Assembly (NCBI RefSeq): GCF_014855515.1 | Contig: NZ_JACYFK010000002.1 | Span: forward strand, 186,001 to 250,000 | DNA length: 64,000 nucleotides | Source: Euzebyella marina | GTDB lineage: Bacteria; Bacteroidota; Bacteroidia; Flavobacteriales; Flavobacteriaceae | Direction: 5' to 3' | Part shown: in pieces, positions 49,003-54,922 of the stretch | Numbering within the stretch: position 1 is the stretch's first letter | Layout of the letters: each line of letters opens with the position of its first letter | The notes under the pieces: generated by a model | Seen by the model: only the letters and a program-made list of their open reading frames with translations | Told to the model about the DNA's origin: nothing | The model's database searches: none | Made by a program: the position numbers and the translations under genes

Positions 49003-51834
49003 TCAATGAAGTTCTTTTTTTAAGAATTGGGCCGTATAGCTCTTTTTGTCATTGGCCACTTCCTCTGGCGTTCCCTTTGCAACTACCATGCCACCGCCAC
49101 GGCCACCTTCGTAACCAATGTCAATGATGTAGTCGACCATTTTGATTACATCCATATTGTGTTCTATCACCAAAATGGTATTTCCTTTGTCTACCAAACG
49201 GTTTAAAACTTCCATAAGTACACGAATGTCTTCAAAATGTAATCCGGTAGTGGGTTCGTCCAAGATATAAAACGTATTGCCCGTATCTCTTTTAGATAGT
49301 TCAGTGGCCAATTTTATCCGTTGAGCTTCGCCACCTGATAGGGTCGTAGATTGTTGCCCTAACGAAATATAACCAAGACCAACATCTTTAATGGTCTTAA
49401 GTTTTCTATATATTTTAGGAATATTCTCAAAGAAATCAACTGCCTCATTAATGGTCATTTCCAATACGTCGGCAATTGACTTGCCCTTGTATCTAATTTC
49501 AAGGGTTTCTCTATTAAAACGTTTGCCATTACAAGTCTCGCAATCAACGTATACATCTGGCAGAAAGTTCATTTCAATGACACGCAATCCGCCGCCTTGA
49601 CAAGTTTCACACCGACCACCCTTCACATTAAAACTGAACCGCCCGGGTTTGTAACCTCTAATAGCGGCTTCAGGAGTTTTGGTAAATAGAGAACGAATTT
49701 CACTGAAAACTCCGGTATAGGTGGCCGGGTTTGACCGAGGCGTTCTACCAATGGGCGATTGATTGATATCGATTACTTTATCGATATGTTCAAGACCTTT
49801 AATTTTTTTGTATGGCATGGGCTTTTTAACGCCATTAAAATAATAGGCGTTCATAATAGGGTAGAGGGTCTCGTTGATCAGTGTCGACTTGCCGCTACCG
49901 GAAACACCTGTAACACCAATCATTTTTCCTAAAGGAAATTCTACCGTAACGTTCTTAAGGTTGTTGCCTGTACAACCGGATAGAACAATCTTTTTGCCAT
50001 TGCCTTCCCGTCTTTTTTCGGGTACGGCAATTTCTCTAACACCTGTGATATATCCGGCAGTTAAAGTGTTGTGCTTTTTTAATTCGGACGGCTTACCCTC
50101 AGATATAATTTCCCCACCGTGTTTACCGGCCTTTGGTCCGATATCAATAACGTGGTCTGCGCGTTCTATCATATCTCTGTCATGCTCGACCACGATTACC
50201 GAATTGCCAATATCCCGAAGTGATTCCAAAGATTGAATAAGTCGCGTATTGTCACGTTGATGCAGGCCGATACTAGGTTCATCTAAAATATAAAGCACAC
50301 CTACTAACTGCGAACCAATTTGTGTTGCTAAGCGAATACGTTGTGCCTCCCCGCCGGATAACGATTTTGAGCTACGGTTTAGGGATAGGTAATCTAGCCC
50401 GACATCTAGTAAAAACCGTACTCTGGCCCTAATTTCCTTAATTATTTCTTCAGCTATCTTTTTTTGATTGCCAGTTAGCTCGTTTTCCAACCCTTCGAAG
50501 AAAACGGAAAGATCAGAAATATCTAAATGGGCAAGCTCGGCAATATTTTTTTCGCCAATCTTAAAATTCAAAGATTCTTTGCGTAAGCGCGACCCTTCAC
50601 ATTCGGGGCACACTATTTTATCCATAAAGTCTTTCGCCCACCTTTTTAAGGAAGTGGTGGCCGCCTCTTCGTATTGAGTTTTAATGAAGTTAGAAATACC
50701 TTCGTAATCGATTTTATAGGTGCGCTTGACCCCTAAGGTTTTTGAGTCGACATCAAAACTTTCATTTCCTCCATGAAGAAGCACCTTGATAGCTTCTTGA
50801 GGTATTTTTTCGATAGGGTCGGTCAACTCGAAACCATACCGTTGCGCGATGGTTTCTACTTGTTTGAAGGCCCATGATTTTTTATAATCTCCCAAGGGAG
50901 CAATGCCCCCTGATTTAATGCTCAGCTTTTTATTCGGAAAGATTTTATTCTCGTTTACCTCATATACATGGCCAAGACCATTGCAATGGGGGCACATACC
51001 TTTCGGGGAATTAAAGGAAAAAGTATTGGGTTCGGGAACAGGGTAAGATATGCCGGTAGTAGGACACATGAGGTCACGGCTAAAATAACGAGCCTCTGCT
51101 TGACCTTCTTCTAAAACCATGAGCACATTATCACCGCTGTACATGGCCGTATTTATAGTTTCGGTCAGACGTTTGTCTAGCTCCTCTGAATCAGCAATTT
51201 TAAGCCTATCGATTACTATTTCAATATCATGGGTTTTGTACCGGTCGACCTTCATACCTTTCACGATATCTTTAATCTCTCCATCGACTCTCACCTTTAC
51301 AAACCCCTGCTTGCCTATTTGTTCGAAAAGTTCGCGGTAATGACCTTTTCTAGATTTGATTACCGGGGCCAGAACATTTATTTTCTTGCCATTGTAATCT
51401 TCTTTAATAAGTTCCTTTATTTGTTCATCGCTATAACTGACCATTTTTTCACCTGTATTATAGCTATAGGCATCTGCGGCCCTCGCAAAAAGCAGGCGTA
51501 AAAAATCGTAAATCTCGGTAATGGTACCAACGGTAGATCGAGGCGATTTCGAAGTAGTTTTCTGTTCAATCGCAATTACGGGAGAGAGCCCATCGATTTT
51601 ATCGACATCGGGTCGTTCTAATCCGCCTAGAAACTGGCGGGCGTAGGCAGAAAAAGTTTCGATATACCTTCTTTGACCTTCGGCATAAATTGTGTCGAAT
51701 GCCAGAGACGATTTGCCACTACCGGAAAGACCGGTAATCACCACTAGTTTTTCACGTGGTATAGTAACGTCAATATTTTTTAAATTATGAACCCTGGCCC
51801 CTTGAACCTCAATGTTTTCTTCGTAATTGATCAT
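49003..51834 (-). CDS. uvrA: excinuclease ABC subunit A
   Basis: 943 residues from ATG 51834 ([20 protein letters not shown]); the frame to 51846 begins at a TTG and adds four residues. Two ABC-ATPase halves: Walker [15 protein letters not shown] and [23 protein letters not shown] signatures in both; zinc-finger cysteines CPHCNGLG and CETCQGGG / [23 protein letters not shown] and [14 protein letters not shown]. Damage recognition in nucleotide excision repair with UvrB/UvrC. Normal length. Gene 103 bases downstream of the DUF4130 gene on the same strand, so three DNA-metabolism genes line up here. Confidence 0.97.
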
Positions 51835-51950: not shown

Positions 51951-52727
51951 TTAGACCACTTCCCTTTTTTCACTCAAATATTTCCAATACCGTTTGGGCA
52001 CGTGTTGCTTGTGAAGCTTTAAATTTATGCGACTTTTAATGTTGGTGCTTTTAAAATAATTATTCCATAAATTTTGAAAATCATACTCTTCATCCACAAG
52101 GCTTTTGCTTTTATGTACGCTATTGGTAATGATTTCCTTTAAATCCATCGTGACTATTTCGACCTTTTCTAAATCGTAATAAAGGCCGTATTTTCTTTTT
52201 ATATCATAAATCAGCCAATATTGGTCTGCATAGCGGTTTCTAAAGTGCTTGGATATGAGGGGCAAAACATTGAAATCAGGTTCTATATTGGCAAAGTAAA
52301 TACCATCTTTTGTTAATTGAAAACGCACAAAAGCCTCCATTCTGTGTTTTTCTCTTCCCACCGATTTGGCCAACTGGCTTATTTTTAAGACGACACCGTC
52401 TGAGTAATCAAAAGCAATGCTTTTATCTTTAGCAAAGAACTTTCTGATATATCTGTACAGTAACATTTCAACACCTTGGGCTTCACTTAAAAAAGCAAAA
52501 TAAATGTTGGTGATGGCAGAGTGACTTTTTTTATCGATACCGAACCATACCCTTTTGGCTTTTGTGGCATCGGTAATGACGGTTTCAGATTCAGAAAAAA
52601 GTCCGTTTTGGCTATCTGATTCCCTCTGAATGTCCGAAACTGCGATTTTTTCTTCAAAAGCAACAAAAACAGCAGTTAAGAACCCGTTGAAACTGCCATC
52701 GTATATTAAGATTTTTGAATTATCCAT
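51951..52727 (-). CDS. DUF4130 (TIGR03915) probable DNA metabolism protein
   Basis: 258 residues. ILIYDGSFNGFLTAVFVAFEEKI at the N-terminus, VWFGIDKKSHSAITNIYFAFLSE, then KISQLAKSVGREKHRMEAFVRFQL and a C-terminal DUF4130-like stretch (FNVLPLISKHFRNRYADQYWLIYDIKRKYGLYYD). Family recalled as TIGR03915, which is repeatedly found with the radical SAM TIGR03916 family; in some lineages DUF4130 is fused to a uracil-DNA glycosylase-like domain (absent here). Biochemical activity is, to my knowledge, unproven. The radical SAM gene is 10 bases upstream in the same operon. Function inferred from context as DNA repair or base modification. Confidence 0.85.
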   Translation of the reverse strand: MDNSKILIYDGSFNGFLTAVFVAFEEKIAVSDIQRESDSQNGLFSESETVITDATKAKRVWFGIDKKSHSAITNIYFAFLSEAQGVEMLLYRYIRKFFAKDKSIAFDYSDGVVLKISQLAKSVGREKHRMEAFVRFQLTKDGIYFANIEPDFNVLPLISKHFRNRYADQYWLIYDIKRKYGLYYDLEKVEIVTMDLKEIITNSVHKSKSLVDEEYDFQNLWNNYFKSTNIKSRINLKLHKQHVPKRYWKYLSEKREVV

Positions 52728-52737
52728 AGCTGAAATA

Positions 52738-54012
52738 TTATACTGCCATTTTATCGAAAAGTTGAAGCTGGTTGCTATATTCTTTACGGAATTTACCCGT
52801 TGAGTTTTGCAAAATCATGCCTTTTATGGTGTCGGCCTGTAAATCACGTTTCTCCCATTTATTCGAATCACAAATCATGAAATACTTAGCCCTATTGAGA
52901 GCAATGCCAATTTTTCTAAGATGATCCCAATTCAATTTCCTAAACTTTCGGGCATTCATAATCTTGTGAACCGACTGCATACCAATACCCGGCACTCGTG
53001 CCAAAAGTTCTTTCGGAGCCTTATTGATATCAATTGGAAATAAATGAAGGTTTCTTAAGGCCCAACCCAATTTAGGGTCAACATCCATATCTAAATTCGG
53101 ATGCTGGTTATTTAATAGTTCTTTTACATGAAACCCATAAAAACGTAAGAGCCAATCGGTTTGATATAATCGATTTTCTCTTAAAAGAGGCACCTGCGAA
53201 CCGATAGCCGGTAATCTTTTATCCTCCGCAACAGGTACATAACCGGAATAATACACCCGTTTCATATGATATTTTTGATAGTAATGCGTGGCAGAGTACA
53301 TGATGTCTTTATCGGATTCGCCCGTGGCACCAATTATCATTTGCGTACTCTGCCCAGCAGGAGCATACTTCGGTGTGCTCTTGATTATTTTTTTTTCGGC
53401 CTTGTATTGAATTATTTCATTCTTGACCTTGAGCATGGGTTTGGTGAAATCTTCGTAACGTTTGTCAGGAGCCAACAGCTTTAACCCAGAAACAGTAGGC
53501 ACCTCAATATTAACAGAGAGTCGGTCGGCGTAAAGACCGGCTTCCCTCATTAGCTCATCGCTTGCCCCCGGAATAGATTTTAAATGAATATACCCATTGA
53601 AATTCTCTTCTTCCCTCAGCTTTTTGGCAACAGCTATCAAACGTTCCATCGTATAATCGGCATTCTTGAAAATACCTGAGCTTAAGAACAGCCCTTCAAT
53701 ATAATTTCTTCTATAAAAGTTGATAGTAAGGTCAACTACCTCCTGAATTTTAAAGGCAGCCCTTTTGATATCGTTACTTTTTCTAGTGACACAATAAGCG
53801 CAATCATAAATACAATGATTGGTCATTAAAATTTTAAGCAACGATACACAACGCCCATCTTCGGTATAGCTATGACAAATACCCATGCCACTACTATTAC
53901 CAAGCCCCTTGTTCTTATTGGCTCGGGTGCTTCCGCTACTGGCACAGCTCACATCGTACTTTGCGGCATCGGCCAGAATGTTCAGTTTTTCCTTAATTCT
54001 TTCGAACGACAT
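52738..54012 (-). CDS. radical SAM DNA modification/repair protein (TIGR03916-like)
   Basis: 424 residues. The radical SAM cysteines are C67, C71 and C74 in CIYDCAYC (Cx3Cx2C), binding a [4Fe-4S] cluster; TIM-barrel features GLFLSSGIF and HLKSIPGASDELMREAGLYADRLSVNIE follow. Around residue 325-355 a helix-hairpin-helix appears (LLARVPGIGMQSVHKIMNARK), a DNA-binding module. Further N-terminal cysteines (C23, C46, C55) could bind an extra cluster or zinc. First gene of an operon with the DUF4130 protein, divergently paired with an HTH-S24 regulator across a region full of TGGAA half-sites. Likely DNA-damage related; substrate unknown. Confidence 0.88.
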   Translation of the reverse strand: MSFERIKEKLNILADAAKYDVSCASSGSTRANKNKGLGNSSGMGICHSYTEDGRCVSLLKILMTNHCIYDCAYCVTRKSNDIKRAAFKIQEVVDLTINFYRRNYIEGLFLSSGIFKNADYTMERLIAVAKKLREEENFNGYIHLKSIPGASDELMREAGLYADRLSVNIEVPTVSGLKLLAPDKRYEDFTKPMLKVKNEIIQYKAEKKIIKSTPKYAPAGQSTQMIIGATGESDKDIMYSATHYYQKYHMKRVYYSGYVPVAEDKRLPAIGSQVPLLRENRLYQTDWLLRFYGFHVKELLNNQHPNLDMDVDPKLGWALRNLHLFPIDINKAPKELLARVPGIGMQSVHKIMNARKFRKLNWDHLRKIGIALNRAKYFMICDSNKWEKRDLQADTIKGMILQNSTGKFRKEYSNQLQLFDKMAV

Positions 54013-54025
54013 AATGATGTTGTAA

Positions 54026-54094
54026 TTATTCCAAAAATATGGAATAAATCCTAATTATGGAAATAATCCAAAAAATATATTGGAATATTTCCAA
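54026..54094. promoter_or_regulatory. cluster of TGGAA/TTCCA operator half-sites (likely S24 regulator binding sites)
   Basis: Palindrome A: TTATTCCA (54026-54033) and TGGAATAA (54040-54047), six-base spacer. Site B: TGGA (54058-54061) and TCCA (54067-54070). Palindrome C: TTGGAA-TAT-TTCCAA (54080-54094), perfect. Six half-sites of the same TGGAA/TTCCA word lie in 69 bases. A lies over the -7 of the minus-strand operon and C over the -33/spacer of the regulator's own promoter. The arrangement is that of an autoregulated divergent repressor. Confidence 0.7.
54032..54063 (-). promoter_or_regulatory. candidate promoter of the radical SAM operon
   Basis: Minus-strand TATTTTTG (54039-54032) is a perfect -7; TTTC at 54063-54060, 20 bases upstream, is an imperfect -33. 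Start predicted near 54026, 14 bases before the ATG. The 54026-54047 palindrome covers this -7. Confidence 0.5.
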
Positions 54095-54108
54095 AAACCG
54101 TATATTTG
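54080..54108 (+). promoter_or_regulatory. candidate promoter of the HTH-S24 regulator
   Basis: TATATTTG (54101-54108) is a perfect -7; TTG at 54080-54082, 18 bases upstream, is the possible -33. Start predicted near 54115; leader of ~43 bases to the ATG at 54158. Confidence 0.55.
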
Positions 54109-54157
54109 AGCGGATAGGAAGGAATTTATCCCAGTGGGATTTAAAATTTGAATAGGT

Positions 54158-54922
54158 ATGGAGAATGAATTAACCTTGAAGAGATTTACAGATATCAGAC
54201 GTGATTTAGGTTTTACCCAGGCCGAATTTGCCAAGCTGCTTGGGGTTTCAAGTACTACAGCCGATATAGAAAGAGGTCGAACAAAGCTGTCAGGTAAGGT
54301 GGTAGCCGAACTTTTAAAGCAATTCAAGATAAATCCTCTGTGGTTGTTCGGGGAAAGTGAGAACAAATATTTGGAAACATCGCAAACCAGTGTTATTCCA
54401 AAAGTAGTGACCGTTGATAGTGAAGATCGCGAGAATATGGTTCTGGTGAATGCCAAGGCCGCTGCAGGATATCCGCAAAACATTCAAGATACCAGTTGGT
54501 ACCGTCAGTTACCGGCCTTTGATTTGCCTATTCCGGAATTTAGAAATGCCACTTATCGGGGTTTTCAAGTAGAGGGTGATAGTATGTTGCCCAACTTGAG
54601 GCCAGGGGAATGGGTTCTGGCCAAGGCCGTAGAGCATATCGATGATGTTAGCCCCAATAAAATGTACGTGGTCGTTTTACAAGATGCCGTTTTGGTCAAG
54701 AAAATTGAGCGAAGACCCAATTCGAACAATGTAACATTGGTTTCCCTCAACGAGGCTTATCCACCCTACGAAATCAAACCGTTTCAAATTCAAGAGCTTT
54801 GGCAGGTGAGCAGTAGAATCACCTTTGGTGAGGATGCCAGTACCGAAAAAGGCCTTCTCAAGCAACTTCAAGAATCTATGGAAGAGCTAAAGGGCCAGCT
54901 ACAGCATGTAAAAAAAGTGTAG
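54158..54922 (+). CDS. HTH (XRE-like) plus S24 peptidase domain regulator, LexA-like
   Basis: 254 residues. N-terminal helix-turn-helix (~10-60; LGFTQAEFAKLLGVSSTTADIERGR), then a linker and an S24/LexA-type protease: putative self-cleavage site A103-G104 in AAAGYPQ, nucleophile S142 in VEGDSMLPN, general base K181 in VLVKKI; spacings (38 and 39 residues) are close to those in LexA. A short C-terminal coiled coil follows (~225-250). It likely represses itself and the radical SAM/DUF4130 operon and could be inactivated by RecA-stimulated cleavage. Bacteroidota usually lack canonical LexA, so this could be a local SOS-type switch. Convergent with the GNAT gene, two bases apart. Confidence 0.88.
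   Translation: MENELTLKRFTDIRRDLGFTQAEFAKLLGVSSTTADIERGRTKLSGKVVAELLKQFKINPLWLFGESENKYLETSQTSVIPKVVTVDSEDRENMVLVNAKAAAGYPQNIQDTSWYRQLPAFDLPIPEFRNATYRGFQVEGDSMLPNLRPGEWVLAKAVEHIDDVSPNKMYVVVLQDAVLVKKIERRPNSNNVTLVSLNEAYPPYEIKPFQIQELWQVSSRITFGEDASTEKGLLKQLQESMEELKGQLQHVKKV

Follow-up and report, generated by a model that had tools for sequence, protein, structure and literature searches.

The regulator encoded at 54158–54922 of the window (the whole stretch of 64,000 nucleotides that was analysed) very probably serves this Euzebyella-like flavobacterium as its SOS repressor, repressing its own gene and the divergent radical SAM–DUF4130 operon, together with a Y-family polymerase gene and a PA0069-family radical SAM gene of the same genome. 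The locus is an ordinary, well-supported member of a recently described system. Its study assigns the genome to the SOS system that was described for Bacteroidetes in 2021 and puts right the register in which its operators are to be read. Across a group of Flavobacteriaceae, the operators of the shared promoter stay in a very rigid array. The locus also offers a lead, open to testing, on a repair pair that is still uncharacterised: the DUF4130 protein apparently depends on the radical SAM protein encoded beside it, and its fold may be RecJ-like.

The interval 54013–54157 is the entire gap between two divergent start codons, that of the radical SAM gene on the minus strand (54012) and that of the regulator on the plus strand (54158). 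The radical SAM protein (52738–54012, minus strand, 424 aa) matches TIGR03916 (rSAM_link_UDG, putative DNA modification/repair) with 673 bits against a cut-off of 343.5; we take this family to be the same as COG4277. The adjacent second gene of the operon (51951–52727, minus strand, 258 aa) encodes a DUF4130/TIGR03915 putative DNA repair protein (285 bits, cut-off 112), so that both models are above their curated cut-offs. Downstream of DUF4130 on the same strand is uvrA (49003–51834; NF001503, 1387 bits, cut-off 1147), which has its own TACCTTTG box in the gap between the two genes. The N-terminal part of uvrA falls inside the 3 kb upstream of the regulator in 30 of the best 80 of at least 565 related loci, and read-through from the array into uvrA is a possibility that this layout raises.

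The 254-aa regulator has an N-terminal HTH_3 domain (PF01381, 31.4 bits) and a C-terminal Peptidase_S24 domain (PF00717, 50.0 bits), both above cut-off, as expected of the LexA-like S24 repressor that an earlier note, made from the letters of this DNA, had taken it to be. The residues named there, A103-G104, S142 and K181, were correct, and they are invariant in 15/15 orthologues and 44/44 close rows. The winged-helix DNA-binding domain of LexA (PF01726) has no match in the regulator. That note had also held that canonical LexA is lacking, and this agrees with the genome-wide result: the one PF01726 match above cut-off is in a 452-aa protein of another kind, and a second, at 21.5 bits against a cut-off of 23.7, is in a 158-aa frame. 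AlphaFold gives a poor model for the regulator (mean pLDDT 56.6), so the fold matches of this model, of which lambda repressor (CI) is the best and LexA another, are weak support. By its domains, residues and predicted sites, the regulator carries every tested mark of the non-canonical CI-like LexA proteins of Bacteroidetes, GGA-N5-TCC group, described in 2021 (PMC8565304); the Salegentibacter agarivorans protein to which it is compared is known here by its published description.

Five exact TGGAA/TTCCA half-sites lie in the gap, at 54029, 54040, 54058, 54081 and 54089. Six had been counted before, the sixth perhaps being a degenerate ATCCA. The window holds 172 such half-sites with at most three per 69 bases outside the cluster, so the cluster is far from chance. 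Read as GGA-N5-TCC, the gap contains three predicted operators: O2 (ATGGAATAAATCCTA, 54039–54053, core 54041–54051), O3 (ATGGAAATAATCCAA, 54057–54071, core 54059–54069) and O4 (a perfect TTGGAATATTTCCAA, 54080–54094, core 54082–54092). These are the only ones among the eight GGA-N5-TCC cores of the window that lie 17–24 bp from another, and the genome has no perfect TTGGAANNNTTCCAA besides O4. To the left is a degenerate operator, O1 (TTGTAATTATTCCAA, 54020–54034), with a GTA-N5-TCC core at 54022–54032. The spacings O1–O2, O2–O3 and O3–O4 are 19, 18 and 23 bp.

Both promoters have a -7 box of the TAnnTTTG type, which is the type of Bacteroidota promoters. That of the radical SAM operon (CAAAAATA = TATTTTTG) is at 54032–54039 on the minus strand, and that of the regulator (TATATTTG) is at 54101–54108 on the plus strand. 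A sigma-70 scan found promoters no more numerous than in shuffles, which is expected for Bacteroidota. O4 starts on the TTG of the -33 region of the regulator promoter, 18 bases before its -7 box, and is the palindrome previously said to cover that region; the view that operators sit over both divergent promoters is likewise borne out by predicted GGA-N5-TCC sites at each. The palindrome previously said to cover the -7 box of the radical SAM operon, TTCCA-N6-TGGAA, is there to the letter, and 67 of 78 related arrays share its core, but as an operator it was read in the wrong register: the published register is GGA-N5-TCC, and this palindrome is the right half of O1, the -7 box and the left half of O2.

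The regulator would thus join an HTH of the phage CI kind to an S24 domain capable of self-cleavage. Its dimers would occupy O2, O3 and O4, and probably O1 weakly, covering the -7/start region of the radical SAM–DUF4130 operon and the -33 region of the repressor gene. Since the operators cover both promoters, both would be repressed. When DNA is damaged, RecA filaments would set off cleavage at A103-G104 via S142 and K181, and the dimers would dissociate. Induction would then follow for the repressor gene and the operon as well as for a second Y-family polymerase and the radical SAM gene of the PA0069 family. We infer the RecA dependence of the cleavage, repression in Euzebyella marina itself and the repair function of the operon. 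A DNA-damage circuit, as the earlier note had proposed, is likely.

Conservation of the array was followed in 80 named loci, the best 80 of at least 565, at 83–94% identity and picked by protein alone. The nearest named records among the matches listed are Cytophaga sp. FL35, Euzebyella saccharophila and Pseudozobellia. Absence of the palindromes from close relatives had been put forward as evidence that would count against a circuit, and the sites are kept: at least two GGA-N5-TCC sites are found upstream in 80/80 of these best 80 (of at least 565). Successive spacings, listed without choosing, include 18-23 in 70/80, 18-22 in 8/80 and a single 23 in 2/80; the last two loci, L055 and L072, keep two sites each. 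The triple at 18/23 or 18/22 bp is therefore kept in 78/80, and these 78 arrays, drawn from the best 80 of at least 565 loci, have 74 distinct sequences. Within the same 78, the minus-strand TAnnTTTG box lies, as CAAAnnTA, nine bases before the O2 core in every case. The -7 box of the regulator lies 19 bases after the start of the O4 core in 76 and 20 bases after it in one; in one it was not found. The distance from O4 to the regulator ATG is variable (30–245). In 66/78, O1 reads GTA-N5-TCC and lies 19 bp away from O2; a full GGA-N5-TCC at 23 bp replaces it in 11/78, making a 23-18-23 array in records labelled Allomuricauda, Muricauda or Flagellimonas, and 1/78 has neither.

In the 70 arrays with 18-23 spacing, the columns of O2, O3 and O4, minus the six fixed by the motif, hold 1.41, 1.62 and 1.37 bits per column, the gaps between operators 1.23 and 1.15, and the flanks outside both -7 boxes 0.29 and 0.25. 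Set against the flanks, the operator and gap columns point to selection acting on the whole array as one unit, as judged from the aligned sequences. Common descent accounts for part of the conservation, since the 80 loci are close relatives at 83–94% identity. The 2.0-bit conservation of GGA and TCC themselves was dropped as evidence, the arrays having been selected with that very motif.

More distant relatives were taken from a survey of 60 genomes, including the window's own, of which 25 had a match at E 1e-20. The orthologues range from 100 to 44% identity, and 16/16 have two or more GGA-N5-TCC sites in the ~320 bp upstream; the most distant (L016, 44%) has two stop codons inside the match. 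At 44–63% identity the spacings are mostly 19–23, with 32 in L010, an additional 43 in L015 and an additional 85 in L014. Seven of 11 distant paralogues have a usable upstream stretch, and among these GGA-N5-TCC is found in 0/7 and a CTA-N7-TAG element in 6/7. The other four (L017, L021, L024 and L025) were set aside because the match starts inside the protein, so that the stretch upstream of it is not the promoter. The promoter of the window regulator has GGA-N5-TCC without any CTA-type site.

A more ambitious reading, which we regard as possible though on balance doubtful, combines two proposals. The array would be a cooperative switch, with three strong operators beside a deliberately weakened O1, near-invariant 19-18-23 spacing and differing thresholds for the repressor and the operon, along which CI-like repressor dimers would assemble on the DNA; and DUF4130 would be a RecJ/Cdc45-like DHH-fold partner dependent on the radical SAM protein.

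Within 3 kb of the regulator, radical SAM and DUF4130 are both found in 62/80 loci, DUF4130 alone in 17/80 and neither in 1/80 (best 80 of at least 565). TIGR03916 occurs anywhere in the genome in 8/16 genomes, and G020, G028 and G034, which are without it, still have a DUF4130 gene beside the array (in G034 judged by eye). Only 12 of 77 inner branches of the regulator tree are well supported, and these force at least four changes of the DUF4130-alone state, which we infer to be losses of the radical SAM gene. The DUF4130-alone label does not cluster on the regulator tree beyond what is seen in shuffles.

The median identity of DUF4130 to the window protein is 53% at the 17 loci without radical SAM vs 70% at the 62 loci with it (from the best 80 of at least 565; Mann–Whitney p ~1e-9, uncorrected for relatedness). 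The regulators of the same two groups of loci are alike (85.0 vs 85.2, p 0.98). That DUF4130 is less conserved where radical SAM is missing suggests, from these comparisons, that the two act together, and its fast divergence wherever the partner is missing is what the more ambitious reading takes as dependence upon it. As to the fold, the predicted model of DUF4130 has a mean pLDDT of 79.5. Foldseek matches it to PAP phosphatase and RecJ-type DHH proteins (E 3e-4, TM ~0.4), and the first nine rows of VIA-align are PAP phosphatase and RecJ at Z 8.9–8.3, where unmatched models typically reach a best Z of 7–8. Most of the lower rows are presumably of the DHH type also. The DUF4130 consensus has no DHH triad, and Pfam at E up to 1 gives no DHH match to 51951–52727. 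A RecJ/DHH-like fold is accordingly offered as a lead only. The uracil-DNA glycosylase (UDG) function considered for the operon is unsupported here: at E up to 1, Pfam detects no UDG domain in the same gene and gives DUF4130 only.

How far the control by the predicted SOS repressor extends was read from operators elsewhere in the genome. The strict 15-mer pattern WWGGAWWWWWTCCWW has 14 sites genome-wide vs 12 for a reversed-pattern control, and 7 vs 17 in a genome of the same genus (G001). Since these totals are not above control, single sites are uninformative and clustering alone carries signal. Strict sites within 24 bp of another are confined, in this genome, to the array and to two pairs, one ahead of a Y-family polymerase and one ahead of a radical SAM gene of the PA0069 family. 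The sites of both pairs are 19 bp apart. One pair is 34 bp before the polymerase, on contig C1 (NCBIfam PRK02406, DNA polymerase IV, 266 bits, cut-off 256), and the other is ~50 bp before the PA0069-family gene (460 bits, cut-off 360), whose family we take to belong to SplB COG1533. The same two promoters in G001 likewise have pairs. Two other regulon markers were tried and rejected, as neither is enriched: TGGAA/TTCCA inverted pairs (80 sites vs 155 in the reversed control) and TTGGAANNNTTCCAA with one mismatch (41 vs 41). Site counts alone thus cannot define the regulon, and clustering does.

Matches to PF00817 across 16 genomes fall into two score classes. The lower-score class of Y-family polymerases has at least two sites at 10 of 15 loci (nine of the 10 at 19 bp), a CTA-type site at 1/15 and neither kind at 4/15; the higher-score, housekeeping-DinB-like class has a site at 1/15. 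Four Y-family matches came without a locus; the C1 copy of the window genome was read, and the other three are outside these counts. GGA-N5-TCC precedes recA at 0/15 loci. SRAP loci have an operator pair in 0/7; a lone GGA-N5-TCC is present in two of the seven, 322 bp ahead of the domain match in one and 278 bp in the other. In G012 (L180, G012:C8:29000–39600) the array faces a one-direction run that reads SRAP, a 98-aa gene, a Y-family polymerase, a DnaE-type polymerase, radical SAM and DUF4130 (the last judged by eye). This run, divergent from the SOS repressor, is independent support for the radical SAM–DUF4130 pair in the SOS response. Looser GGA-N5-TCC pairs were outside the genome-wide search, so the regulon may be larger than the pairs found.

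The earlier note had pictured a dedicated local module, in which the regulator has no targets besides its own gene and the divergent radical SAM operon. The gene order is indeed kept, with DUF4130 within 3 kb in 79/80 and radical SAM in 62/80 of the best 80 of at least 565 loci. We nevertheless consider such a module unlikely, because the same genome has operator pairs ahead of the Y-family polymerase and of the PA0069-family gene, because relatives have them ahead of Y-family polymerases, and because L009, L010, L011 and L014 keep their sites with neither radical SAM nor DUF4130 seen in the adjoining 1.5 kb (DUF4130 judged by eye). Going by its operator pairs, the locus is the predicted hub of a small SOS regulon. 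Still less probable is the repressor of a prophage or phage remnant with operators of its own, unrelated to host damage control. The CI-like HTH with S24, the lambda repressor as best fold match of a low-confidence model, and the phage origin proposed for the family (PMC8565304) would all suit it. Against it, the locus is flanked by uvrA, a GNAT gene and a gamma-glutamyltranspeptidase-like gene (the last judged by eye), DUF4130 adjoins in 79/80 loci of several genera (best 80 of at least 565), and site pairs precede host repair genes. That the repeats belong to promoters or to A/T-rich low-complexity sequence would fit the genome-wide count and the ~1.2 bits in the gaps between sites, by which some conservation may belong to the promoters, but it is hardly credible given at least two sites in all of the best 80 of at least 565 loci, picked by protein alone, fixed spacing in 78 arrays of 74 distinct sequences with nearly unconserved flanks, and a motif with published EMSA binding (PMC8565304).

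The predicted repressor resembles canonical LexA in its S24 self-cleavage residues, the operators at its own promoter and its SOS targets, and differs in being without the winged-helix domain PF01726. With lambda CI it shares a CI-like HTH. The OR region of lambda has tandem operators over divergent promoters, resembling the array. The regulator differs in being chromosomal and in the 19-18-23 spacing of its array, for which cooperativity is a proposal only. The CTAA-N5-TTAG group also combines HTH and S24 but has another operator, where the window regulator has GGA-N5-TCC. A second S24 regulator, 30% identical, occurs on contig C7 of the window's own genome (G000, L207:7766–13640) with a CTACAATTTGTAG operator; by resemblance, its CTAC-N5-GTAG promoter site would put it in the CTAA-N5-TTAG group. 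It is back to back with a run of Y-family polymerase, DnaE-type polymerase and SRAP genes; a conjugation gene of TraK type lies ~5 kb away (80.5 bits, under the cut-off of 152), and the whole is possibly a mobile SOS-like mutagenesis module.

The closest likeness is to the GGA-N5-TCC group itself, as presented in the main sections of PMC8565304. There, the S. agarivorans repressor (WP_075324850.1) bound GGA-N5-TCC in EMSA, binding was abolished by altering a dyad half or the spacer length, and induction by mitomycin was reported. Shared with that protein are HTH_3 plus S24, the Ala-Gly and Ser-Lys residues, GGA-N5-TCC at its own promoter and a host among the Flavobacteriaceae; recA was uninduced there and is without a site here. 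The predicted targets of the group, a two-gene COG1573–COG4277 operon, DinB/UmuC and SplB, are of the types that have sites here, namely the operon, Y-family polymerases and an SplB-like radical SAM gene, and two or more sites per promoter were noted for the family. The operon is termed a uracil-DNA glycosylase repair system in that paper, whereas its partner gene here is a DUF4130 without a detectable UDG domain. Literature on the operator motif, DUF4130, COG4277 with LexA and the TIGR/Pfam names gave only PMC8565304, PMC3765255 or nothing. Euzebyella, Zobellia and Maribacter are absent from the main text of PMC8565304, and its main sections, supplements apart, do not describe a fixed geometry of three to four operators, a conserved weak O1 or dependence of DUF4130 on radical SAM. 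The novelty of the lineage-specific SOS-like circuit suggested earlier was overstated, as the repressor family, its motif, binding and induction and the predicted regulation of this type of operon are already known (PMC8565304). What this locus possibly adds is an array of fixed geometry in which a weak O1 is conserved, the recurrent absence of radical SAM with fast divergence of DUF4130, and the RecJ/DHH-like fold predicted for DUF4130.
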